DNA from: a virus
IMG/VR virus record: IMGVR_UViG_3300027857_000016
Span: 1 to 64,000 of that record
Strand: one strand, 5' to 3'
DNA length: 64,000 nt
The position numbers were made by a program, and so were the translations under genes. Of this stretch, positions 3,074-44,185 are shown piece after piece. Numbering within the stretch: the stretch's first letter is position 1; every line of letters begins with the position of its first letter. Under the pieces are notes generated by a model. It did not search any database. It saw nothing but the letters and a program-made list of their open reading frames with translations, and was not told the DNA's origin.

Positions 3074-3167
3074 TCTCTCTCCTACATGATCTATCTTCTC
3101 TAGACGAGCGTATTATTATTCATGGTATGAGTAAAGTCAATGTCCTATTTTATTGAAGAGGTTTTTC

Positions 3168-3854
3168 ATGTATATTTTGGTAATCGATGATGACCCGTTG
3201 AACTGCGAACTCGTCAAATTTCTGTTGTTGAAAGAACGCTACGAAGTCGAAGTAGTGGACAACCCGCGTGGTGCCATTCATCTCATCGAGAAACGTCTTC
3301 CTGACCTCTTGTTGCTGGATATCCGCATGCCAGGCATGGATGGCTTTGCACTGACGGAGCACCTGGAAAAGACCGGGTACCGTATTCCCAGGGTCTATCT
3401 TACGGCTTGCTCAACTGAGGAGGACCGCCTCCGGGGCTACAAACTGGGAGCTGAAGACTATATTTGCAAGCCGTATTCTCCCGCCGAACTCCTGGAACGT
3501 GTCAAGGTCGTGGCACGCCATCAGCGAGGAGTCCGGCCAGCACAGCATCTGCGTGTTGGACCAATAGAACTGATCCCTGAAGAACTGCATCTGCTCATAG
3601 CGGGGCAATCTGGTCCTCTCCCACTCACTCCCACTGAAGCACGTTTGCTTGCTATCCTGATGAGTCATGAAGGGATCGTGGTTCAGCGTGGCGAGTTTAT
3701 TGCCACCATCTGGAATGACTCCGAAGACATGGGAAGCAACATTCTTGATGTGTTTATTAAGCGGTTACGTGGGAAATTGCGTATTCCTGGGAAGATGCTC
3801 CCTAGTATTCTGACGGTGCGTGGGGTAGGATATAAGCTGGTGAATGTGAATTAA
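3168..3854 (+). CDS. OmpR/PhoB-family response regulator, orphan
   Basis: A two-domain transcription regulator of about 228 residues. The receiver domain has the acidic pair D8-D9, phosphoacceptor D51 (LLLLDIRMPG), T79 and K101 (ICKPYS), so it looks phosphorylatable. The C-terminal part (about 125-228) is a winged-helix DNA-binding domain ending in the usual TVRGVGYKL segment. The ATG at 3168 has GAAGAGG in front and starts exactly at the receiver strand. There is no histidine kinase in the window, so it is probably served by a host kinase or works unphosphorylated. A near-match (11 of 13) to the recurrent palindrome lies at 3119-3131. Confidence 0.9.
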   Translation: MYILVIDDDPLNCELVKFLLLKERYEVEVVDNPRGAIHLIEKRLPDLLLLDIRMPGMDGFALTEHLEKTGYRIPRVYLTACSTEEDRLRGYKLGAEDYICKPYSPAELLERVKVVARHQRGVRPAQHLRVGPIELIPEELHLLIAGQSGPLPLTPTEARLLAILMSHEGIVVQRGEFIATIWNDSEDMGSNILDVFIKRLRGKLRIPGKMLPSILTVRGVGYKLVNVN

Positions 3855-3875: not shown

Positions 3876-4328
3876 ATGGTTGATCTGCAACGAAAACGTG
3901 TCACGGCTTCCTTTACCTTTGAAGTGAGAGTAGATGATACCAAGATCCACTCTTCAGGCAATGACGAAGAGGTGAAGCAACTTGACCTGGCACTTCTCCG
4001 CCAGTTCTTGGAGTCTGATCCAGAACGGGTGCGAATACTCCTTGCCGACATGATCTCATTGCAGTTGGGTGGGATGTACGATGATGAGACCAGGAAGTAT
4101 CTCGTCAAAGGCGTACCCGATGGCGATACCTTTATGAAATACCTCTTTTACGATGCTATTGAGCAGCTACCAGAGCCATTTTTGACTGATTGGCGAGAGA
4201 TACGCGATGATCCTGCCATTGACCTTTCCCAATGTGTAGAAGGTATTCTGGCGTGTTTTGAAGTCACGTTGGTGAGTGGAAGCCTGGAGCAGGACTCGAA
4301 CCTGCGACCACCGCACGATGTGAGATGA
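3876..4328 (+). CDS. Hypothetical protein running into a tRNA-like gene
   Basis: The frame starts 22 bases after the response regulator, behind GGAGAAG, and is probably cotranscribed with it. The first 130 residues look like an authentic soluble protein (beta N-terminus, then acidic helices). The last 15 or so, QDSNLRPP and what follows, are antisense translation of the tRNA-like gene at 4282-4378, and the stop codon lies inside that gene's extra loop. Either the gene really overlaps the RNA gene convergently, or the original C-terminus was replaced when the tRNA region arrived. Confidence 0.55.
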   Translation: MVDLQRKRVTASFTFEVRVDDTKIHSSGNDEEVKQLDLALLRQFLESDPERVRILLADMISLQLGGMYDDETRKYLVKGVPDGDTFMKYLFYDAIEQLPEPFLTDWREIRDDPAIDLSQCVEGILACFEVTLVSGSLEQDSNLRPPHDVR

Positions 4329-4378
4329 GTCGATGACCCAGTGCTCACGGCGGTGCTCTGCCACTGAGCTACCCAGAC
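4282..4378 (-). tRNA. tRNA-like gene with an enlarged anticodon arm
   Basis: On the minus strand a 7-bp acceptor stem (4372-4378 with 4282-4288, two wobbles), TA at positions 8-9, a D-arm GCTC-AGTGGCA-GAGC, and a canonical T-arm GCAGG-TTCGAGT-CCTGC (4289-4305) are all present. The region for the anticodon arm is 49 nt instead of about 22: CCGC pairs with GCGG but encloses about 35 nt, within which GTGAG pairs with CTCAC. The anticodon therefore cannot be assigned, and the 3' CCA is not encoded. It could be an intron-containing tRNA, a tRNA-like element, or a tRNA broken by a 26-nt insertion. Confidence 0.65.
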
Positions 4379-7845: not shown

Positions 7846-7882
7846 GGATGAGGTAATGTGTTTGTGAGACATTACCTCATCC
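7846..7882 (-). terminator. Intrinsic terminator
   Basis: A perfect 14-bp stem (7846-7859 with 7869-7882) with a 9-nt loop. On the minus strand a T-rich stretch (TTTGCTTTG) follows, so it ends the 8283-7927 operon. Confidence 0.7.
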
Positions 7883-16492: not shown

Positions 16493-16522
16493 ACAACGCC
16501 CACCAGTCTTGGTGGGCGTTGT
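16493..16522 (+). terminator. Terminator hairpin
   Basis: ACAACGCCCACC (16493-16504) and GGTGGGCGTTGT (16511-16522), perfect, 6-nt loop, after the operon that ends at 16429. Two weaker hairpins, CTCTC/GAGAG and TCCCT/AGGGA, precede it, so a small stable 3' RNA is possible. Confidence 0.6.
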
Positions 16523-16540: not shown

Positions 16541-16609
16541 AGGGGTAGAGCTATGTAAGGTGACACCCGCTACTTTGCGGCGGGTGTCACCTTACATAGC
16601 TCTACCCCT
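16541..16609. repeat. 30-bp perfect inverted repeat
   Basis: Arms 16541-16570 and 16580-16609 are perfectly complementary over 30 bp around a 9-nt loop. It lies between convergent genes (16429 on +, 16617 on -). There is no T-run on either side, and the stem is much longer than that of normal terminators. Confidence 0.8.
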
Positions 16610-17329: not shown

Positions 17330-17357
17330 AGACGCCTTCCCAACAGGGAAGGCGTCT
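17330..17357 (-). terminator. Intrinsic terminator of the HTH gene at 17361
   Basis: AGACGCCTTCCC (17330-17341) and GGGAAGGCGTCT (17346-17357), perfect 12-bp stem with a 4-nt loop; on the minus strand it is followed by TTTTAT. Confidence 0.85.
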
Positions 17358-18729: not shown

Positions 18730-18927
18730 ATGGAAGAAGAAGTGGCGGTGGTCGTGACGGACGATCCACGGCTGGGGCGCTATGCGACGGACTGTGAAGG
18801 GTTTCGTGGGAGGATCAGCACCATTTGGCGATGTTCCGATGGGTCTGAGTTGTTTGAGATCAGCGATGGTGGACATGCTCATGGCGGATTGGAACGAGAT
18901 CAAATCCAGATAGAGGAGGCAGAGTGA
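18730..18927 (+). CDS. Small beta-rich hypothetical protein
   Basis: A 65-residue acidic, strand-rich protein (GRISTIWRCSDGSELFEISDGG) resembling a small SH3-like barrel in pattern. The start follows GAAGGAGAG. It is coupled to the next gene by TGATG. No family recognised. Confidence 0.6.
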   Translation: MEEEVAVVVTDDPRLGRYATDCEGFRGRISTIWRCSDGSELFEISDGGHAHGGLERDQIQIEEAE

Positions 18928-19193
18928 TGGAACGAGTAGAGGTTGAGCGACTACTGCAGGAGGCGAGGGAGATTCCTGTTGAGATGGGGCAGGCGAGCGC
19001 CATTAGTCAGGTTCAGGTCGCATTGCAACGTGGGATACCTGGGCAGGAAACGGCTAATGGCGGTGACGATGATCCTGTAGGTGGACCAGAAGGGACCATT
19101 CCTCGGTTTAGCCACCTCTTTGTGGACTGGTGGCGGTCTGGAGGCCCTGTCACCTCAGAATTGGTGGATGAAGTCTGCGCATTGATGCAATGA
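18927..19193 (+). CDS. Hypothetical protein
   Basis: An 88-residue protein, acidic and helical at the N-terminus, Gly-rich in the middle and ending in a Trp-containing helix. Starts at ATG 18927 (an ATG three bases upstream is also in frame). A 287-bp non-coding gap follows. No family recognised. Confidence 0.55.
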   Translation: MERVEVERLLQEAREIPVEMGQASAISQVQVALQRGIPGQETANGGDDDPVGGPEGTIPRFSHLFVDWWRSGGPVTSELVDEVCALMQ

Positions 19194-19244
19194 CAGAAAG
19201 ATGTGGGAGGGAATGGGTATGTGTTTTTTGTAGCGTGTTTGATA

Positions 19245-19277
19245 GGGCAACACCAGACATCTGGTGAGGATTGAAAC
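19245..19277 (+). repeat. Solitary CRISPR-repeat-like element
   Basis: A 33-nt unit with a perfect 7-bp palindrome CACCAGA-CA-TCTGGTG (19251-19266) followed by AGGATTGAAAC (19267-19277). The GGATTGAAAC ending, overall length and central hairpin match the plan of type I-C/I-B CRISPR repeats. No second copy, spacer array or cas gene is in the window. The element lies in a 287-bp gap without genes (19194-19480). Confidence 0.45.
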
Positions 19278-19418
19278 TAGCGCGGTCACTAGAGCTTGTC
19301 AATCGGGCACTCAGCGGGTTGATAAGCATGTGGTGAGTGAGCCACGAGTCGTTGTAGTGCGGTTTGTCGTTTGAATCTGTCATGCGGATTTTGTAGGTGT
19401 CGTTCTCGTAGTTTTTGC

Positions 19419-19453
19419 GCTCTGTGCCAGTGTTGTTACCACTGGCACAGAGC
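19419..19453. terminator. Perfect 14-bp hairpin upstream of the 19481 operon
   Basis: Arms 19419-19432 and 19440-19453 are perfectly complementary with loop TTGTTAC. It lies after the CRISPR-like unit and could end an RNA that starts near it. There is no strong T-run. Confidence 0.55.
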
Positions 19454-19480
19454 TGACCGCAAACGTGAAAGGCCACGTTC

Positions 19481-19807
19481 ATGGCTTCCGCCATAGTAGC
19501 ATCTCCAGTGGATGCGCACAAGCAAATAAGTCAAAGTGTCACCCAATTTCCTACTGTCACTGTATCGTCGTCTCTTCCCGGTCTCACCGTGCTGCATTAC
19601 CCGATACCCGGTGATTCTACACGGGAATGCGTCATTCTTGAGCACAGGGAGCCATTTCATCCAACCCTGGCAACTGGCGTGCGTCGTCTGAGTGGGAAGA
19701 CATCTGCGAAGGCTCGCCGTGTCCCTATGTTGCTCAGTCATGATGGGACTGTCTACTCGTCCAGCGTGTTCGCACCTCTGGGGAGCCAGGTGGAGGTGAG
19801 ACGATGA
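19481..19807 (+). CDS. Hypothetical beta-rich protein
   Basis: A 108-residue protein with Val/Ser/Thr-rich strands, starting near the hairpin at 19453. It begins a run of eight short genes to 21688 joined by ATGA-type overlaps. No SD is obvious before the ATG. No family recognised. Confidence 0.55.
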   Translation: MASAIVASPVDAHKQISQSVTQFPTVTVSSSLPGLTVLHYPIPGDSTRECVILEHREPFHPTLATGVRRLSGKTSAKARRVPMLLSHDGTVYSSSVFAPLGSQVEVRR

Positions 19808-22365: not shown

Positions 22366-22374
22366 GAGATGCTC

Positions 22375-23997
22375 ATGGGCTTTTTATTCCCGTATATCAA
22401 TAGGTTGAGGAACCCAATCTACCTGGTGATCCTGGTGATCCTGGTTGGGTTCCTCGCGTCCCAGTTTTCCGGTTTGGGGATGGACGGTATCACCTATGCA
22501 GTTCTAGGTGCTGCCGCCATTGTTGTGCTCATTCCACTCGTTGGATCTGCGATAAAAACAGGGTGGCACGCCATGATTCATGGGGAGTCTGGTGTGCTTG
22601 ATTTCGCGGTCTCACCAGGCGGATATCGTCGAGCAAGGCAAGCAGAGACAGAAGAGGAGCAGGTCGCGCAATCTATTGTGCAGCCTACTCCCAACCGTCC
22701 ATTTATTATTGATGCTTTGCCATCTGTTGCATCTTCTTCGTCTGTACAGGTTTCTCCGACTGCTGTGGTAAAAGGATCGTCGATGACAGTAGCACCCTAT
22801 CGCGGTGGTCTGCTTGAGACGAAGCTGAACCTTTCTGCTGACTGTAAGCCTCCTATCAACTTTGTGCTTGGTCGGGCGATTCTGGGCGTTGGTCAACGTG
22901 GATCTGGGAAGACGAATCTAGCAGCCCGTCTCATTGAGCAGATTGGGCAGTTCCCTATCCCGATGGCGATCTTCGACTATGAGGAGGACTACCTGACGCT
23001 GCCAGCCCTCTCGAAGGTGAAGCCGAACGTGCTCAACCGTTGCGTCATTGCAGGGAGACCTGATTGGGAGGAAGCGTTCCGCTACCGGGAATACTATTGG
23101 CAGGTGGATACGGAAAATGCTAGAGAAGTGGGCTATGAGATCTTAGAGCAGGGGGTGCAACTCGTTCTAGAGGTTGGGACGTATCTGACCCTGGAAGAGG
23201 GTGCTCGCATCATGACTGAGATCATTCGCGGCATGTTTGACTGGGCCAATGAGCAAGATCCGAAGAAGCGTGTTCCCAATCTGGTCTTGCTCGACGAGGC
23301 ACAGCACTTCCTGCCTCAGAACTCTGGCGTCTCCAATATTCGTGAGGAGGAAGCTGGCGAACTGCTCAAGGCATTCATGGACATCAATGCCCGTGGCCGC
23401 AAGCGTGGATTTACCCCTGCTATCTTCACGCAGCGTATTGCTCAGATCCGCAAAGAGGTGATCGCTGGATCTGAGATCTACTTCCTCATGCGCCAGACGA
23501 TCAGCAATGACCTGCAGGTCTATGAGGGACTATTGGGCAAGGATGACAACAATAAGCAGCGTCTGGACCGGAGGACAGTGCAGGCATTTGAGAAAGGTGA
23601 TGGGATTGTCTTTGAGGGTGGAGAGATGTTCATCACGCACTTCGATGAGCGTGAGTCGGAACATCGCGGGAACACACCGAAGCTGGAGCAGGCCCTCAAC
23701 CGTTACGGGGACAGACCATTGGCACAGCGGTCCAGAAACAAATCACCTCTTGTACCAGATGAAGAGATCGAGGATGAGGATGAACAGGAACTGGAGTGCA
23801 TGCAGTTGGGGAAAGATGTTTTTATCACGATGGACCAGTTTGCTTTAGCGGTCAAGTTGCGCAAAGAAGGTCTCTCAAAGGGGTATCGAGATTTAATGCC
23901 TGTGTTTGAGTTATCAGAGCATCACGCCAAAGAGTTGAACAAGCGTATCCGAGAAGTGTTGGGTCAGGAACCTGAACAAGAGGGCAATGGAGTCTGA
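22375..23997 (+). CDS. Membrane-anchored HerA/FtsK-like ATPase
   Basis: A 540-residue protein. Two N-terminal transmembrane helices (about 15-32 and 41-57), a linker, then a P-loop ATPase of the HerA/VirB4/FtsK group: Walker A GQRGSGKT (173-180), Walker B LVLLDEAQH (303-311) and an Arg-rich stretch INARGRKRG, with a later FTQR that fits the sensor Gln. The C-terminus has an acidic linker and a small helical domain (ELSEHHAKELNKRIREVLG). Such proteins pump DNA across membranes, or process DNA ends. The start is ATG 22375, spaced correctly from GGAGATG; the ATG at 22369 is too close to the SD. Confidence 0.85.
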   Translation: MGFLFPYINRLRNPIYLVILVILVGFLASQFSGLGMDGITYAVLGAAAIVVLIPLVGSAIKTGWHAMIHGESGVLDFAVSPGGYRRARQAETEEEQVAQSIVQPTPNRPFIIDALPSVASSSSVQVSPTAVVKGSSMTVAPYRGGLLETKLNLSADCKPPINFVLGRAILGVGQRGSGKTNLAARLIEQIGQFPIPMAIFDYEEDYLTLPALSKVKPNVLNRCVIAGRPDWEEAFRYREYYWQVDTENAREVGYEILEQGVQLVLEVGTYLTLEEGARIMTEIIRGMFDWANEQDPKKRVPNLVLLDEAQHFLPQNSGVSNIREEEAGELLKAFMDINARGRKRGFTPAIFTQRIAQIRKEVIAGSEIYFLMRQTISNDLQVYEGLLGKDDNNKQRLDRRTVQAFEKGDGIVFEGGEMFITHFDERESEHRGNTPKLEQALNRYGDRPLAQRSRNKSPLVPDEEIEDEDEQELECMQLGKDVFITMDQFALAVKLRKEGLSKGYRDLMPVFELSEHHAKELNKRIREVLGQEPEQEGNGV

Positions 23998-25717: not shown

Positions 25718-25759
25718 AGAAAGGCACCTCTCAAAACTCCCTTTGAGAGGTGCCTTTCT
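25718..25759 (+). terminator. Strong intrinsic terminator
   Basis: A perfect 18-bp stem (25718-25735 with 25742-25759) with a 6-nt loop, T-rich at the right arm's end. It closes the 19.5-25.7 kb operon. Confidence 0.85.
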
Positions 25760-27408: not shown

Positions 27409-27981
27409 GTGGTAGGTGTGGCGGAGAAGTATGGGCAAGTGCAACTGGAAGAAACGCCTAAATCAGCAGCAGCATTCTATGAGTACTGTTTGCTCGGTGC
27501 TGATCGCAGTTTAGCAAAACTTGCTCAAAAACTCGGTAAGTCAACGGCATATATACGGTGTCTGGAAACGTGGTCATCGCACAATAGGTGGCAGGAACGG
27601 GTCAGAGAATATGACGCTGAGCAGGCAAGATTTCAAGGAGAAGCCATCCTCCAGGAGCGTACAAAAATCCTCAAATTTCGTTATGCGCTTATGCACAAGC
27701 GCATTGAACAACTTGACCGCATAGCACAAAAACTCCTCGATTATGCCGAAGACGAAGAAAAAGTATGGCTCCCCGATGTGAAAGCTATTGGCAATGGACC
27801 AGGCGCTGAACGTGTTGATCTAGTGCAGTTCAACGATGCCCTCTTCCGAGAAATCCGTGCGCACTTTGCCGATATCGCATCTGAACTGGGTGAGCGTGTC
27901 AAAAAGACCGATACCACCGTTACGGTAATCCCAAAGACCTACCTTGATCTTGATCCTGATGAGGACGGGAGCGAAGAGTGA
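27409..27981 (+). CDS. Probable terminase small subunit
   Basis: A 190-residue protein starting at GTG. The N-terminal part has a helix-turn-helix pattern (RSLAKLAQKLGKSTAYIRCL, then W-SSHNRWQERVREYD), followed by a long helical oligomerisation region. This is the usual plan of small terminase subunits, which recognise the packaging site. It directly precedes and overlaps the large subunit. Assignment rests mainly on that pattern and position. Confidence 0.75.
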   Translation: MVGVAEKYGQVQLEETPKSAAAFYEYCLLGADRSLAKLAQKLGKSTAYIRCLETWSSHNRWQERVREYDAEQARFQGEAILQERTKILKFRYALMHKRIEQLDRIAQKLLDYAEDEEKVWLPDVKAIGNGPGAERVDLVQFNDALFREIRAHFADIASELGERVKKTDTTVTVIPKTYLDLDPDEDGSEE

Positions 27982-27992
27982 TGGGAGCAGTG

Positions 27993-29384
27993 ATGAGCGC
28001 TCCGAAAGAGCAACGACCCTACAAGCGATACGGTGCTGCATTGACTGCATGGAAATCTCGACGGCGTGAGCTGGTGCTTTCTGGTCCTGCTGGAACTGGC
28101 AAGAGTCGCGCCTGTTTAGAGAAACTTCACTTCTGCGCTGACAAATATGCTGGCATGCGTGGGTTGATCGTGCGTAAAACACGGACCAGTGTCACGCAAA
28201 CAGCAATGGTGACATTCGAGCAGAAAGTGTTACCTGAAGGGTGGCTTGGAAACATTATCCACTTTCGCTCAAGCGAGCAAGAGTATCGATATCCCAACGG
28301 CTCCATTATTGCCGTTGGCGGGCTAGATAAATCATCCAAGATCATGAGTTCCGAGTGGGACATGATCTATGTACAAGAGGCAACAGAACTAAGCGAGGAT
28401 GGATGGGAATCGCTGACCACACGCTTACGTAATAATGTGATGCCTTATCAACAACTTCTTGCTGACTGTAACCCTGGACCTCCTACCCACTGGCTCAAAC
28501 TTCGCGCTGATCGTGGTCTTGTGTTGATGTTGGAGTCCAGACACGAGGATAATCCCTCCGTTACTCCTGAGTATATTGCTACCCTGGATGCACTCACAGG
28601 TGTGCGCTATCTCCGTTTACGCAAAGGAATATGGGCAGCGGCTGAGGGATTGGTATATGAGGAGTGGAATCCCGCCATACATAAAGTCTCACGCTCGAAG
28701 CTGGTGGAATGGCAGATCCTTACATCGACAGGGGCGATGAATCGTAATGGAGCAAGGCGGGTTATTGCTGGTGTGGACTGGGGATGGAAGAATCCTGGAA
28801 CCATCCTCGTTTTTGCTCTAGATGCTGATGATCGTTTGTTTCTCATCCACGAGGTGTATCGAACACAGCGTACAGATGACTGGTGGACAGAGCAAGCGGT
28901 GCAACTCAAGAAGATGTATGGCATTAGTGAGTTCATCTGTGATCCTGCTATGCCTGCCTATATCGCCAAGTTCAAGCTCGCAGGCTTAAATGCTATCGAG
29001 GCGAACAATGAGATCGCCGCTGGTGTCAACGATATGCGCGAATGTCTCCAGATAGCCAGCGATGGACGACCGCGTTTTTATGTCTACGAATATGCGCTGA
29101 GAGATCGTGATGAGACACGTGTTGAGAAGTATCTCCCGTTTTGTTTCGATGGGGAAATCTTGGAGTATGTGTGGCCGAAAGATCAGGAGGGGAAACCCGT
29201 TAAGGAATTACCAGTAGCGGTGAACAATCATGCGTTAGACGCCTCTCGCTACGTATGCCGGTGGTTGAGTAAAGACACGCCCTCATCAGCACACCATCTT
29301 TTGGCAATAAATCGTCGTGTTGAGTTGGACAGGAGAAGAAGGGTACAACCTATCCAGTCAGTGCAAAGAGGATGGCCGCAATGA
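27993..29384 (+). CDS. Terminase large subunit
   Basis: The DNA-packaging motor. With the ATG at 27993 it has 463 residues. ATPase: Walker A GPAGTGKS (31-38), Walker B MIYVQEATE (124-132) and coupling motif LLADCNP (155-161). Nuclease domain (RNase H fold): D262 in AGVDWGWKNPG, D317 in FICDPA and D416 in NHALDASRY. All expected residues are present. In-frame starts at 27978 and 27981 are possible. The family resembles PBSX/Terminase_3-type subunits. Confidence 0.92.
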   Translation: MSAPKEQRPYKRYGAALTAWKSRRRELVLSGPAGTGKSRACLEKLHFCADKYAGMRGLIVRKTRTSVTQTAMVTFEQKVLPEGWLGNIIHFRSSEQEYRYPNGSIIAVGGLDKSSKIMSSEWDMIYVQEATELSEDGWESLTTRLRNNVMPYQQLLADCNPGPPTHWLKLRADRGLVLMLESRHEDNPSVTPEYIATLDALTGVRYLRLRKGIWAAAEGLVYEEWNPAIHKVSRSKLVEWQILTSTGAMNRNGARRVIAGVDWGWKNPGTILVFALDADDRLFLIHEVYRTQRTDDWWTEQAVQLKKMYGISEFICDPAMPAYIAKFKLAGLNAIEANNEIAAGVNDMRECLQIASDGRPRFYVYEYALRDRDETRVEKYLPFCFDGEILEYVWPKDQEGKPVKELPVAVNNHALDASRYVCRWLSKDTPSSAHHLLAINRRVELDRRRRVQPIQSVQRGWPQ

Positions 29385-34827: not shown

Positions 34828-37800
34828 GTGAGCAGGCGAAAATTCCGAAAAAAGCAGATGACCCTGGATAGAGCAAACCAGATGGCTCTGCCTGGTGGGG
34901 CAATGATGTATGTACCTCCAGGGGGCGCACAGTCAACCTATTCGCAGACGTTTTACGGGTCTCGCACAAAAAATACTCCCACAGGTCAAGTAGCACTTTT
35001 CACACCTGGAAGTCCATTGCAGCCGCAGCAAGGGATAAACCCTAATGGGCAACCCATTGCTTACCGTTATCCTTTCTCCTTCAATACGTTCCCGGTTGAC
35101 CGTACAAGTCAAAACCCTGATATACCCTCTTTTCAGCAGTTACGCAACTTAGCGAAACTCTACAATGGAGTGACTCTTTGCGAACGCTGTTGGCTTGATC
35201 TCGTCCCTCGGATGAAACTCAAAATTGAACTCAAACCTGAATATGCGGCGCTTGGTGCCGATGAAAAAGACTATCAGGCAGACATTTCTTACTTCCTCAC
35301 CTGGTTTGAGTCTCCTGATAAGATGCATGACCTCCACTCATGGCTTCGCATGTGTCTCCGCGAGCAAACTCAAATTGATGAACTATACATCTACAAACGG
35401 AAGAAGCGTGGTGGTGGTTTACATGCATTAGAGTTGGTTGCAGGCGATCAGGTCAAACCACTGCTTGATGATTGGGGCAAGATCCCGCAGCCACCTGATT
35501 TTGCCTACCAGCAATATCCCTGGGGCATACCGGGCGCATGGTTCAGATCCGATGAGATGATCCACTATCAGGAGTCTCCTGCTGCCGATAATCCTTACGG
35601 TCAGAGTCGTGTTGAGCGCATTATCATGCTGGTCAACCAGGGTCTCCGCAAGCAAAAGAAAGACCTCTCACACTTCACTGAAGGGAACATTCCGAGCGGC
35701 ATGATGCTTGTCCCGGATGATGCCACCTGGACACCAGATCAAATTGACGCCTTTGAGCAAGCCTGGAACGCGTTACTCGCAGGAAATGCACAGCAACAAG
35801 TACGGATGAGATTTACCCAACCAGGGATGAAGTATCAACCATTCGAGCAGTATGGGCTTGATCCAACCTTTGACAAGTTCATTCTCAACATTGCCGTGAG
35901 CGCGTACGGCATGAGTATGCAGGATCTGGCGTTTACTGAGGATATCCATAAGAGCAGTGGTGACTCTCAACAAAATGTCACGTATAGGCGTACCATTGAT
36001 CCTCTCGCCGTAGTGTACGCCTCCTTCCTCACCCAGTCCATGAATACTGACTTCCCACCTGAGTATCATGGTGAGATGTTTCAAGCGAGCTTTGGGGGCT
36101 ATGATGAGGAGGAAGATGTATCTGAGTTAGCAGGTGCATATAGTACATTAGTGACATCAGGTATTCTTGGCATTACCAATGCTGGCAAACTGCTGAAACT
36201 CCCTGATGATCCGAATGCTCCCTACATTGGTCGGATCTTGGTTACCAAAGACGGACCCGTGTTCCTCGACGATATGGCGAGCGACAAGATGCGCAATGCT
36301 CAAATGCAGGCACAAATGGCAGGGTACAAACAAGCTAGTAGTCCACAACAACCCGCACAGAATCAACAGAAGACTGGAGAAGAAGAGCAGCAATCGAAGG
36401 AGAACGAGCAGAAGACGCCTGAGAACGAGCCTGCTGACCAGACAGCATCCACTACGCCACAAAATAGCGATGAACATGAGAGTGAGCAAGAGACCGAAAC
36501 GCCCGAAGAGACGGCTGAACATGAGAATGAGATCTCGACCTTGCTCAAGCAGGATACAAGCGAGCCATTTACGCAACTTGAGCGTATGATCGATGTTTTT
36601 GAGCGGCATGAGCCTGGTGGACACGATCATGATCAGAAAACGCATGGAGACTTCGCCCATCCAGGATATGGCGCAAAGCACGACAAGACACCAGCCAATC
36701 AGGAGGCGATGCAGGCTGAAGCAAAAGCACAACCGGCGATCCAGGCGGCAGACAAGGCAGTACAGGCTGCCCAGGCCAAAGTCAATCAAGCAGAAGTGGC
36801 ACTGGCAGGTGCGGCAACCCCTGCCGCAAAGGCACAGGCAAGAGCAGCGCTGGACCAGGCACGTACCGACCTCAGAAAAGCAAAAGATGCACTTCTCATG
36901 GAAAAAGCAAAGGCGAAGGATGCGGCAACAGCAGAGCGGGCAAAAGCCAAACAGGAAGCGCAGAAACTGGCGGCAGAGAAAAAAGCTGCTGCCGCCAAGC
37001 TGCATGCACAAAAGATGAAAGCACACCTACAGAAACAGGCACAAGCAGCATCCGCCAAAGCCGCGAGAATGCAGGCAACCGCACAACACAAGGCTCAGAT
37101 TGCCGCAGGGAGAGCGGCCAAGTCTGCTGCGAAGTCTGGGAAAGCGCAGGCTCACGCACAACTTCAGGCTGCCAAACAGCAGCAGAAGGCGGCGAAGGTG
37201 TTGGCATCATTGGTCAATACGTTGGGAGCGAAGGCAACACTCTATAATGCGCTAGCAGGACGCAAACTCTCGAAGACCTGGAATGCGCAGGACTCCCAGG
37301 ATGCTTCAGCTATTGCCAGTGACTTCCATGCCCTGATCGAGATGGTCAATTCTCATGCCAACGAAGGGAACGCAAAGGCACTTGTTCAACAATTAACGCA
37401 ATCGGTAAGTAAGTTACAGGGACAAAAGGGAATCACCTCTGCGAGGTCTGCGGCATTGGATAAGTTGATAGCGCGTATCCAGTCCCAACTAGCGCTCAAT
37501 CGCTCAGTTGGAGACGATAACAGTGACGAGTGGCTCTATGACGATCCAGAAGAGGATGAACGGTTTGATGATGAGGAAATTGACGAAGAAGCAGGAATTG
37601 AAGAAAGACGCTACACGATTGGCGAACTCCTTCACCTCCTCCAGGAACAGATGCAAGCGAAGGCGACAGATCAAAGAGATGGAACGGATCTTGAGCAACC
37701 CATCAAAGCGCGATCAGTTGATACAGGAAATGGCAATACGAAGCACGCCACTTCGTCCAATGACGAGACCTCGGATTACAAGCGATGGAGGGGACGAGCC

Positions 37801-38061
37801 ATCGAAGATGTGAAGGCAGGAAAGTCACAACGCGGTTTTACTACAACACTGATACCCGACCACATCCATAGGTGGATTAGCGATGAGTTGCCTCTGTGTA
37901 CGACTCCCGATGAAGTTCGCTCTGTGTTTAGCAGGGCAAAGAATATGGGTGATGAACCGCTTATCACCAGTCGTGAAGAACTAGCAAGGGGTGTTCATTC
38001 TGTGTTTAGCAAAGTGGCTCAGCGAGGGCACAATGAACTGATTACCCTGGAGTCTGAATAA
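34828..38061 (+). CDS. Portal protein with a very long C-terminal extension
   Basis: A 1077-residue protein. Residues about 100-480 have the portal fold pattern of SPP1/HK97-type phages (RNLAKLYNGVTLCERCWLDL, QIDELYIYKRKKRGGGLHALEL, WFRSDEMIHYQESPAADN, AYGMSMQDLAF). Portals form the ring through which DNA enters the head. After about 490 come Gln/Glu-rich repeats, a HEPGGHDHDQKTHGDF motif (about 591-606), an Ala/Lys/Gln-rich coiled coil (about 625-790) and a folded C-terminus (about 970-1077). Portal proteins are usually 400-550 residues, so this is a fusion or an unusual scaffold-like extension. The HDQKTHG motif recurs in head proteins of other phages by memory. Confidence 0.85.
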   Translation: MSRRKFRKKQMTLDRANQMALPGGAMMYVPPGGAQSTYSQTFYGSRTKNTPTGQVALFTPGSPLQPQQGINPNGQPIAYRYPFSFNTFPVDRTSQNPDIPSFQQLRNLAKLYNGVTLCERCWLDLVPRMKLKIELKPEYAALGADEKDYQADISYFLTWFESPDKMHDLHSWLRMCLREQTQIDELYIYKRKKRGGGLHALELVAGDQVKPLLDDWGKIPQPPDFAYQQYPWGIPGAWFRSDEMIHYQESPAADNPYGQSRVERIIMLVNQGLRKQKKDLSHFTEGNIPSGMMLVPDDATWTPDQIDAFEQAWNALLAGNAQQQVRMRFTQPGMKYQPFEQYGLDPTFDKFILNIAVSAYGMSMQDLAFTEDIHKSSGDSQQNVTYRRTIDPLAVVYASFLTQSMNTDFPPEYHGEMFQASFGGYDEEEDVSELAGAYSTLVTSGILGITNAGKLLKLPDDPNAPYIGRILVTKDGPVFLDDMASDKMRNAQMQAQMAGYKQASSPQQPAQNQQKTGEEEQQSKENEQKTPENEPADQTASTTPQNSDEHESEQETETPEETAEHENEISTLLKQDTSEPFTQLERMIDVFERHEPGGHDHDQKTHGDFAHPGYGAKHDKTPANQEAMQAEAKAQPAIQAADKAVQAAQAKVNQAEVALAGAATPAAKAQARAALDQARTDLRKAKDALLMEKAKAKDAATAERAKAKQEAQKLAAEKKAAAAKLHAQKMKAHLQKQAQAASAKAARMQATAQHKAQIAAGRAAKSAAKSGKAQAHAQLQAAKQQQKAAKVLASLVNTLGAKATLYNALAGRKLSKTWNAQDSQDASAIASDFHALIEMVNSHANEGNAKALVQQLTQSVSKLQGQKGITSARSAALDKLIARIQSQLALNRSVGDDNSDEWLYDDPEEDERFDDEEIDEEAGIEERRYTIGELLHLLQEQMQAKATDQRDGTDLEQPIKARSVDTGNGNTKHATSSNDETSDYKRWRGRAIEDVKAGKSQRGFTTTLIPDHIHRWISDELPLCTTPDEVRSVFSRAKNMGDEPLITSREELARGVHSVFSKVAQRGHNELITLESE

Positions 38062-42294: not shown

Positions 42295-42331
42295 GGCCGT
42301 CCATTTCAAATTGAAGGGACGGCCCCTTTTT
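42295..42331 (+). terminator. Hairpin with T-run at the start of the protease gene
   Basis: GGCCGTCC (42295-42302) pairs with GGACGGCC (42317-42324), followed by CCTTTTT (42325-42331). The T-run touches the first possible ATG of the protease. It can end the endonuclease transcript and may attenuate the protease transcript. Confidence 0.65.
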
Positions 42332-44185
42332 ATGGCAATAGACCTCTCCTCACAGACAATAGACGTTTGGCCTGAAGGTGCTGAAGAGCAGGGAATTGCT
42401 CGTTCCATGACCATGGACGAGCGCAATAAAGTTGATGACTCAGACTTTGCGTGGCCCGACGCCCCCGACCATCCAAAGTACCCCGTTCACGACCAGGCTC
42501 ATCTGGATGCTGCTGCAAAATTGATAGGACGTGCCCCTGCTGACAAACAGGACGAAATCAAAGCGCGTGCCAAAAGAATCGCTAAGCGTAAGGGTCTCAA
42601 ACTTCCTGATAGCTGGGAAGAGGGCAGCGCAAAAGACGATAGCACCAAAGATCGTGCCGTTGGAACGGAAGCGTCCTCTCCCAACATCCAGGTCACGATT
42701 GACGGAGCCATGCTTGCTGCCACCACTACGAGTACCAACGTTATTGCCGATATCACCCTCCACCGAGCAGCTGGAATGAATCACGATCCCTTCACGGGTA
42801 CACACAGTCATGCGCACCCAGCATTTGGCAGTCAAGGGGACGACGAGATGCATGAACATGAGCATAGCCACGATGGAGATGCTGACCACAAGCATAGTCA
42901 TGCCCACACGTCGGATGAAAAGAAGGATCGCTCTGTGGGTTCCATCGTTCAGGTGAGTGACCGTCATGTGATGTCTCTGCCTCTTGTGCGTATCGATGCA
43001 GCAAAACGGGAGGTCTGGGGGCAGGCAACGGCTGAAGTCCCTGACAGTTATGGGACGATCTTTGGATACTATCCCGAAGCCTGGACGCAGTGGCGAGGCA
43101 ATATCAGGGAGCAGCATGATCCCAAGAAGGCGGTAGGCAAGCGTGTTGATCTTGATTGTAATGATCAGGAACGCGCTGTTTATGTGGGATCTCGTGTGAG
43201 CCGTGGAGCGCAAGACACCTGGCTCAAGGTAGAGGACAACGTGCTGACAGGGTATAGCGCCTCCATTATCCCCGATGCTGAGTATGGCAATGACCCACGA
43301 CGCTGGCCAAAGAAAGAATACAACGGAAAAGAATATCCCTACCTCCCCCGCTATACCGTTGCTGAGTTATCCCTCGTTGATAATCCAGCCTGTCCTGGCT
43401 GCAATATCCAGATTGTGCGAGCTGATGGTTTTGCTACCGATGTTCTTGACCTGACTGAAGAAGAACCAGAGCAACCCAAACCAGTAGAGCGAGCAGGGGC
43501 CAGAGTCTCTGGCGCAACACGCGTCTCGAATCACAAATCCATTGGACATACCCTTCGAGCAGCTATCTCACAAATGCAGAACTGTGGGGGTGACTGCCCT
43601 CAGTGTACTGCTGCTATGAAAATCATTGATCCTGATGGGGATGGCGATATCGATCTTGGAGGCTATGACGACTCTGATGGTGACTGGCAATCGCTCTACA
43701 ATGGCAAACAAGAGGACATGGAGCGCGTGGTCACTGAACTCATCGAACGCTCACTCCAACCCGTCTATGCGCGATTTCAGGGCATTGCAGGCACCCTTGC
43801 TCGCAATAATGCTCTTCCAACGAATATTGATTCTCTGATTTCATCCTCCATCTCACGCGCATTTGAAGCGATTGACGCCAAGCTTACGGCGCTTCCGACA
43901 GAGGCAAGCCTCGCTGAAGTACGCGCTGAATTGTCAGCGGTAAAAGAGCGGGTTGTCCAGATTGCAGAGCAGCCGATGCCAGGGGGGCCGATTCTCAATG
44001 CAGGCGTGATGCCACGGGCGATTGAAAAGCAACTCCCAACTGATCCTCCCTACGCACCACCACGACCATCGATGGGGTCGGTGTATGACGCGATTGCAAC
44101 GATGTCACGGCAGGGTCAGCTCGATACCGAAGATAAACAAGTTGATGCAATGTACGCTGGCCTGCTGGCACAGCGCAGGAGATAG
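42332..44185 (+). CDS. Prohead protease with N-terminal extension
   Basis: A protein of about 617 residues; the ATG at 42332 has no good SD, and 42410 or 42416 are alternatives. The N-terminus (KVDDSDFAWP, KYPVHDQAHLDAA) resembles the small DUF found before phage proteases. A His-rich stretch (THSHAHP, HEHEHSHDGD) at about 150-195 could bind metal. Residues about 205-370 look like a prohead protease (XkdF/HK97-type: REQHDPKKAVGK with a His, and GYSASIIPDA with a Ser). The C-terminal third is helical and may act as scaffold for the capsid. It directly precedes the capsid gene. Confidence 0.7.
   Translation: MAIDLSSQTIDVWPEGAEEQGIARSMTMDERNKVDDSDFAWPDAPDHPKYPVHDQAHLDAAAKLIGRAPADKQDEIKARAKRIAKRKGLKLPDSWEEGSAKDDSTKDRAVGTEASSPNIQVTIDGAMLAATTTSTNVIADITLHRAAGMNHDPFTGTHSHAHPAFGSQGDDEMHEHEHSHDGDADHKHSHAHTSDEKKDRSVGSIVQVSDRHVMSLPLVRIDAAKREVWGQATAEVPDSYGTIFGYYPEAWTQWRGNIREQHDPKKAVGKRVDLDCNDQERAVYVGSRVSRGAQDTWLKVEDNVLTGYSASIIPDAEYGNDPRRWPKKEYNGKEYPYLPRYTVAELSLVDNPACPGCNIQIVRADGFATDVLDLTEEEPEQPKPVERAGARVSGATRVSNHKSIGHTLRAAISQMQNCGGDCPQCTAAMKIIDPDGDGDIDLGGYDDSDGDWQSLYNGKQEDMERVVTELIERSLQPVYARFQGIAGTLARNNALPTNIDSLISSSISRAFEAIDAKLTALPTEASLAEVRAELSAVKERVVQIAEQPMPGGPILNAGVMPRAIEKQLPTDPPYAPPRPSMGSVYDAIATMSRQGQLDTEDKQVDAMYAGLLAQRRR

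Follow-up and report, generated by a model that had tools for sequence, protein, structure and literature searches.

A solitary type I-C-like CRISPR repeat in an intergenic gap of a tailed phage: a candidate RNA anti-CRISPR

The phage and the gap at 19.2–19.5 kb

The window analysed here covers 64 kb of a virus record of 79,998 bases (~80 kb) from a tailed phage, which encodes the large subunit of terminase (TerL; 27978–29384), a portal protein (34828–38061) and a head maturation protease (42311–44185). A HerA/FtsK-like ATPase (22369–23997) is encoded upstream of the terminase, and its only relative in the viral collection is found on an identical contig. The left part of the window carries a gene for a full-length response-regulator-like protein (3153–3854), matching plasmid-borne regulators at 37%, and an Rfam tRNA match of 45.1 bits on the minus strand (4281–4378), which overlaps the end of an ORF and is not called by ARAGORN. 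Searches for relatives with the HerA-like, TerL, 293-aa and 108-aa proteins yielded, apart from the identical contig, just two distant relatives by TerL, both of which lack the element described below. The contig that carries it (L003) is 100% identical over 12 kb, which confirms the assembly and does not amount to independent evidence.

Within a run of small plus-strand genes, a gap of 287 bp (19194–19480) separates the ORFs 18927–19193 and 19481–19807. As originally predicted, the gap contains no recognizable coding sequence; a 123-aa minus-strand ORF running across it was rejected as a gene, given its neutral codon score and lack of a family match. The upstream plus-strand ORF encodes an 88-aa protein of no known family, the structure of which, predicted without an alignment, was of low confidence and too poor for a structure search. 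No function could be assigned to the 108-aa product of the downstream ORF, and no known Acr or defence families were matched near the element.

The gap contains a single 31-nt CRISPR-like repeat, GCAACACCAGACATCTGGTGAGGATTGAAAC (19247–19277, plus strand), which consists of a 4-nt 5' end (GCAA), the stem CACCAGA/TCTGGTG around a central CA and an 11-nt tail. The perfect palindrome CACCAGACATCTGGTG (19251–19266, plus strand) is predicted to form a stem-loop, with a C-G pair at the stem base and the outer CACC/GGTG pairs characteristic of the repeat family; folded as RNA, it yields 6 bp and a 4-nt loop. By analogy, this stem-loop might be the one bound by Cas5d. The tail AGGATTGAAAC (19267–19277, plus strand) directly follows the stem and has the length of the type I-C handle, suggesting that cleavage would occur at this point. 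The size, palindrome and end typical of CRISPR repeats, initially noted for 19245–19277, were thus confirmed, although the first two bases of that interval fall outside the model match.

The element occurs once, as had been proposed: the window contains no second copy even when 3 mismatches are allowed, and GGATTGAAAC is found only once in the entire 79,998-base record. No array is evident either: beyond weak gapped matches (similarity scores of 13 and 11, compared to shuffled means of 8.9 and 8.5), no second repeat is seen in the 100-bp flanks, the rule for a solitary repeat unit (SRU) being that no second or partial repeat (>70%) lies within 100 bp. Likewise, no cas gene was found among the phage proteins scanned. 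Among 150 genomes of 80 kb simulated with matching dinucleotide composition, a stem of 7 bp or more with ATTGAAAC starting no further than 4 nt beyond it appeared once, or ~0.007 times per genome.

The stretch 3' of the repeat (19278–19400, plus strand), comprising the position of a would-be spacer and the sequence downstream of it, is strongly folded according to the z-scores, which reach −3.5 for the 287-nt gap and about −5 locally, at 19281–19460. In the minimum free energy (MFE) structure of the full gap, the repeat stem gives way to a competing helix, in which the repeat segment GATTGAAAC pairs with GTTTGAATC (about 19370–19400); the margin is only 1.7 kcal/mol. The spacer-like stretch yielded no protospacer match to phages and plasmids. 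Just ahead of the ATG at 19481, a small hairpin, AACGTG-AAAGGC-CACGTT (19462–19479, plus strand), exposes a Shine-Dalgarno-like loop.

The perfect 14-bp hairpin with a 7-nt loop, previously noted at 19419–19453, is indeed present and exceeds chance expectation, with stems of at least 11 bp being absent from 6 random 64-kb sequences of the same make-up. Its suggested role as the terminator of a small RNA fared less well: it has no T-run on either strand, and the intergenic gaps of the phage contain six hairpins of this kind in all; therefore, it is not specific evidence for a small RNA, although it might mark a transcript end or processing site. The five other perfect intergenic hairpins, with stems of 12–30 bp (7846–7882, 16493–16522, 16541–16609, 17330–17357 and 25718–25759), also lack T-runs and are possibly terminators of an unusual type; the stem at 16541–16609 is perfect over 30 bp. 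No sigma-70-like promoter was predicted on the plus strand between 18423 and the element, although the promoters of the host may differ. Thus, there is no predicted promoter within 250 bp upstream, which in the published study of RNA anti-CRISPRs (Racrs) is a selection rule rather than a strict definition. Given that the element begins only 53 nt after the 88-aa ORF, co-transcription with this ORF is plausible, and read-through from the upstream operon, as in the case of RacrIC1, is possible by analogy.

Relationship to type I-C repeats

Among the CRISPR families of Rfam, the best match for this stretch is CRISPR-DR9, at 27.1 bits, which is below the curated cut-off of 45; the corresponding E-values are 0.00034 for the 287-nt gap and 0.076 for 64 kb searched against 4227 families. 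The CRISPR families gave no match, at E up to 10, in 50 kb composed of the remainder of the record together with both TerL relatives. Rfam microRNA matches reflect plain hairpins and were set aside. The 15-nt 3' end of the element, GGTGAGGATTGAAAC, is identical to that of the type I-C repeat of Thermus thermophilus HB27, GTTGCACCGGCCCGAAAGGGCCGGTGAGGATTGAAAC (PMC10989782), and GAGGATTGAAAC is shared with the repeat of Geobacter metallireducens (PMC2700814). Besides the 3' end, the element resembles CRISPR-DR9 and the T. thermophilus repeat in the stem flush with the tail and in the outer CACC/GGTG pairs, but differs from them in being six nt shorter, in the A-T pairs of the inner stem, in starting with GCAA instead of GTTG and in lacking an array.

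A covariance model, R1, was built from 16 repeats (array repeats, solitary copies and two published repeats), with the element itself excluded. The stem of this family covaries: 99.1% of the cells are paired, changes on both sides are seen in 14 cells, and the covariation score exceeds those of all 500 shuffles. In a search of 113,850 bases, the element was the sole match (25.9 bits, E = 4.3e-5). Given that true members score 34–60 bits and weak lookalikes up to 23–24 bits, it is a borderline member, and its placement in the family depends on the stem, namely, on CACC/GGTG, the A-T covarying pairs and the flush junction with the 11-nt tail. The element retains 18 of the 19 columns that are invariant in the 16 repeats, the tail columns being invariant partly through the selection of these repeats, and carries A-T at both strongly covarying pairs with the pairing intact. 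As in the type I-C family, the stem abuts an 11-nt NGGATTGAAAC tail. Conversely, the element departs from the canonical repeat in being 31 rather than 37 nt long and in the 5' end GCAA instead of GTYG.

The identity of the element to the 16 repeats is 74–81% (BLAST, 30.2 bits), below the thresholds published for SRUFinder, which asks for a known repeat matching at 90% identity or more and with 41.1 bits; the 17,823-repeat database of SRUFinder may hold a closer one. The DR9 and R1 matches lie outside genes, as expected of an SRU, the former being below the Rfam gathering score. Overall, the Rfam match, the Thermus I-C repeat and the model derived from repeats on other contigs, both solitary and in arrays, support the type I-C assignment, I-C or I-B having been suggested originally. 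The element is akin to type I-C repeats in both sequence and structure and occupies a solitary, intergenic position. We are fairly confident that this is a genuine CRISPR-repeat-like element and, judging from the sequence, it most likely represents a solitary type I-C repeat unit of compact and divergent form.

Solitary repeats in other viral contigs and the search for a host

A search for CNGGTGAGGATTGAAAC across 2.9 million viral contigs produced 35 stretches, and comparison of these revealed that solitary I-C-type repeats exist in a range of viral contigs. The 37-nt repeat GTYGCACC...GGTGAGGATTGAAAC forms arrays in L019, L020/L041, L030 and L036, and the same repeat is found in solitary form at or near gene boundaries in L016, L017, L022, L026 (two copies), L027, L029/L043, L035, L040 and L048, as well as in L028/L032. 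The two solitary copies in L026 (533–569 and 4537–4573) are identical and lie 4 kb apart, the first one immediately preceding a ribosome-binding site and start codon (ATG). In a clade of related phages (L018, L028, L032, L033, L034, L035, L037 and L039; 85–98% DNA identity), I-C-like repeats occupy two or three intergenic junctions that are fixed in position, including those before a small-terminase-like gene and before an MSK... gene. Across this clade, the stems vary or vanish between relatives and the tail GAGGATTGAAAC is retained; L039 has kept the tail alone, and in L035 an insertion (1805–1856) contains most of a repeat.

A strict exact-stem scan of 84,980 species genomes, with a pattern that misses single stem changes and other loop lengths, detected no matching array. 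An exact-stem match in Shimia marina falls inside a protein-coding stretch and was dismissed as a chance occurrence. Across 96 genomes of the class to which the Shimia genome belongs, R1 retrieved one isolated weak match, which is uninformative with regard to the host.

A candidate RNA anti-CRISPR and the alternatives

Phages and plasmids can encode Racrs, solitary repeats whose binding to Cas proteins gives rise to aberrant subcomplexes (PMC10651486). The stem is essential in RacrIF1 (PMC10651486), and RacrIC1, with demonstrated Racr activity, is co-transcribed with an acr gene and located 11 nt downstream of it (Camara-Wilpert et al. 2023, PMC10651486). In type I-C systems, Cas5d generates the crRNAs, leaving a 5' handle of 11 nt (PMC5965380). 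The element resembles RacrIC1 and other Racrs in being a single intergenic, repeat-like hairpin on a phage, without an array, with type I-C architecture and located just after a small ORF; the 88-aa ORF is placed like the acr gene upstream of RacrIC1. The element differs from them in the lower identity to known repeats, the compact 31-nt form and the lack of a neighbouring known acr gene. Virus-borne mini-CRISPR arrays likewise place a repeat of host type on a virus that lacks cas genes, but here there is one repeat only, and neither a full second one nor a clear partial one adjoins it.

Racrs being already known as a kind, the sequence makes the element a candidate for a further case, and we favour, with modest confidence, the interpretation that this phage-borne solitary type I-C repeat unit acts as an RNA anti-CRISPR. 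Under this scenario, for which we infer transcription, Cas5d binding, inhibition and a type I-C host, all four, the element would be transcribed on the plus strand, probably within an operon starting at about 18.4 kb. Cas5d of the host would then bind the hairpin, perhaps cutting at its base, and the adjoining RNA would recruit Cas7 into dead-end complexes that lack a useful spacer, so that the real crRNAs would be starved of Cas proteins. There is also a slim chance that the whole 19.24–19.48 kb region forms one extended, structured anti-CRISPR RNA that joins a compact I-C repeat to a folded body; pairing of this body (19370–19400) with the repeat could then switch such a regulated Racr between decoy and hidden states.

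One objection is that an intergenic hairpin precedes a CRISPR-like tail by accident or convergence, without any relation to CRISPR. The six perfect intergenic hairpins of at least 12 bp make a hairpin in this gap unsurprising, the element was picked out of a large scan and its R1 score barely exceeds those of the weak lookalikes. The E-values for the phage (2e-5 to 4e-5) argue against such an accident; they apply to one phage, and when roughly scaled to the whole viral collection, chance matches are expected at 25.9 bits. Also against it is the combination of an exact 15-nt tail match, a flush stem and the outer pairs of the family: the probability of a flush stem before a given tail is 0.0043 for 6 bp and 0.0013 for 7 bp, and distinct copies of the tail without a stem number only about 7 across the whole viral collection. 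A chance lookalike seems rather unlikely. The strong fold of the gap, the competing pairing of the repeat segment in the MFE structure and the Shine-Dalgarno-like loop immediately before the ATG would also fit a structured leader of the 108-aa gene at 19481, either a cis-regulatory RNA or an attenuator, with the CRISPR-like segment as one of its helices. However, such a leader leaves the match to CRISPR repeats unexplained and has no Rfam riboswitch or leader match; we regard it as unlikely, while emphasizing that a leader is compatible with a Racr and the two are not mutually exclusive.

Another proposed role of solitary viral repeats is that of recombination sites with host arrays (PMC8616872), and the clade that includes L018, L028, L035 and L039 gains and loses repeats at fixed junctions, raising the question of whether the element could be a remnant of a mini-array, or a repeat acquired from the host, either as a site for recombination into the host array or through array decay, rather than an inhibitor. 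Against such an origin stand the flanks, in which no second repeat is seen beyond weak gapped matches, the proteins scanned, which include no cas gene product, the stretch after the repeat, which matches no protospacer, and the intact stem with paired changes, a feature that decay would not preserve. We regard a remnant as quite improbable.

If the element is indeed an RNA anti-CRISPR, it would extend the known decoys by a compact and divergent type I-C form carried by an uncultured phage, with an identity below the threshold of the published search as tested here, suggesting that published searches miss repeats which are recognizable only through stem covariation combined with the tail. A compact 7-bp stem around CA is also present in the viral contig L051.
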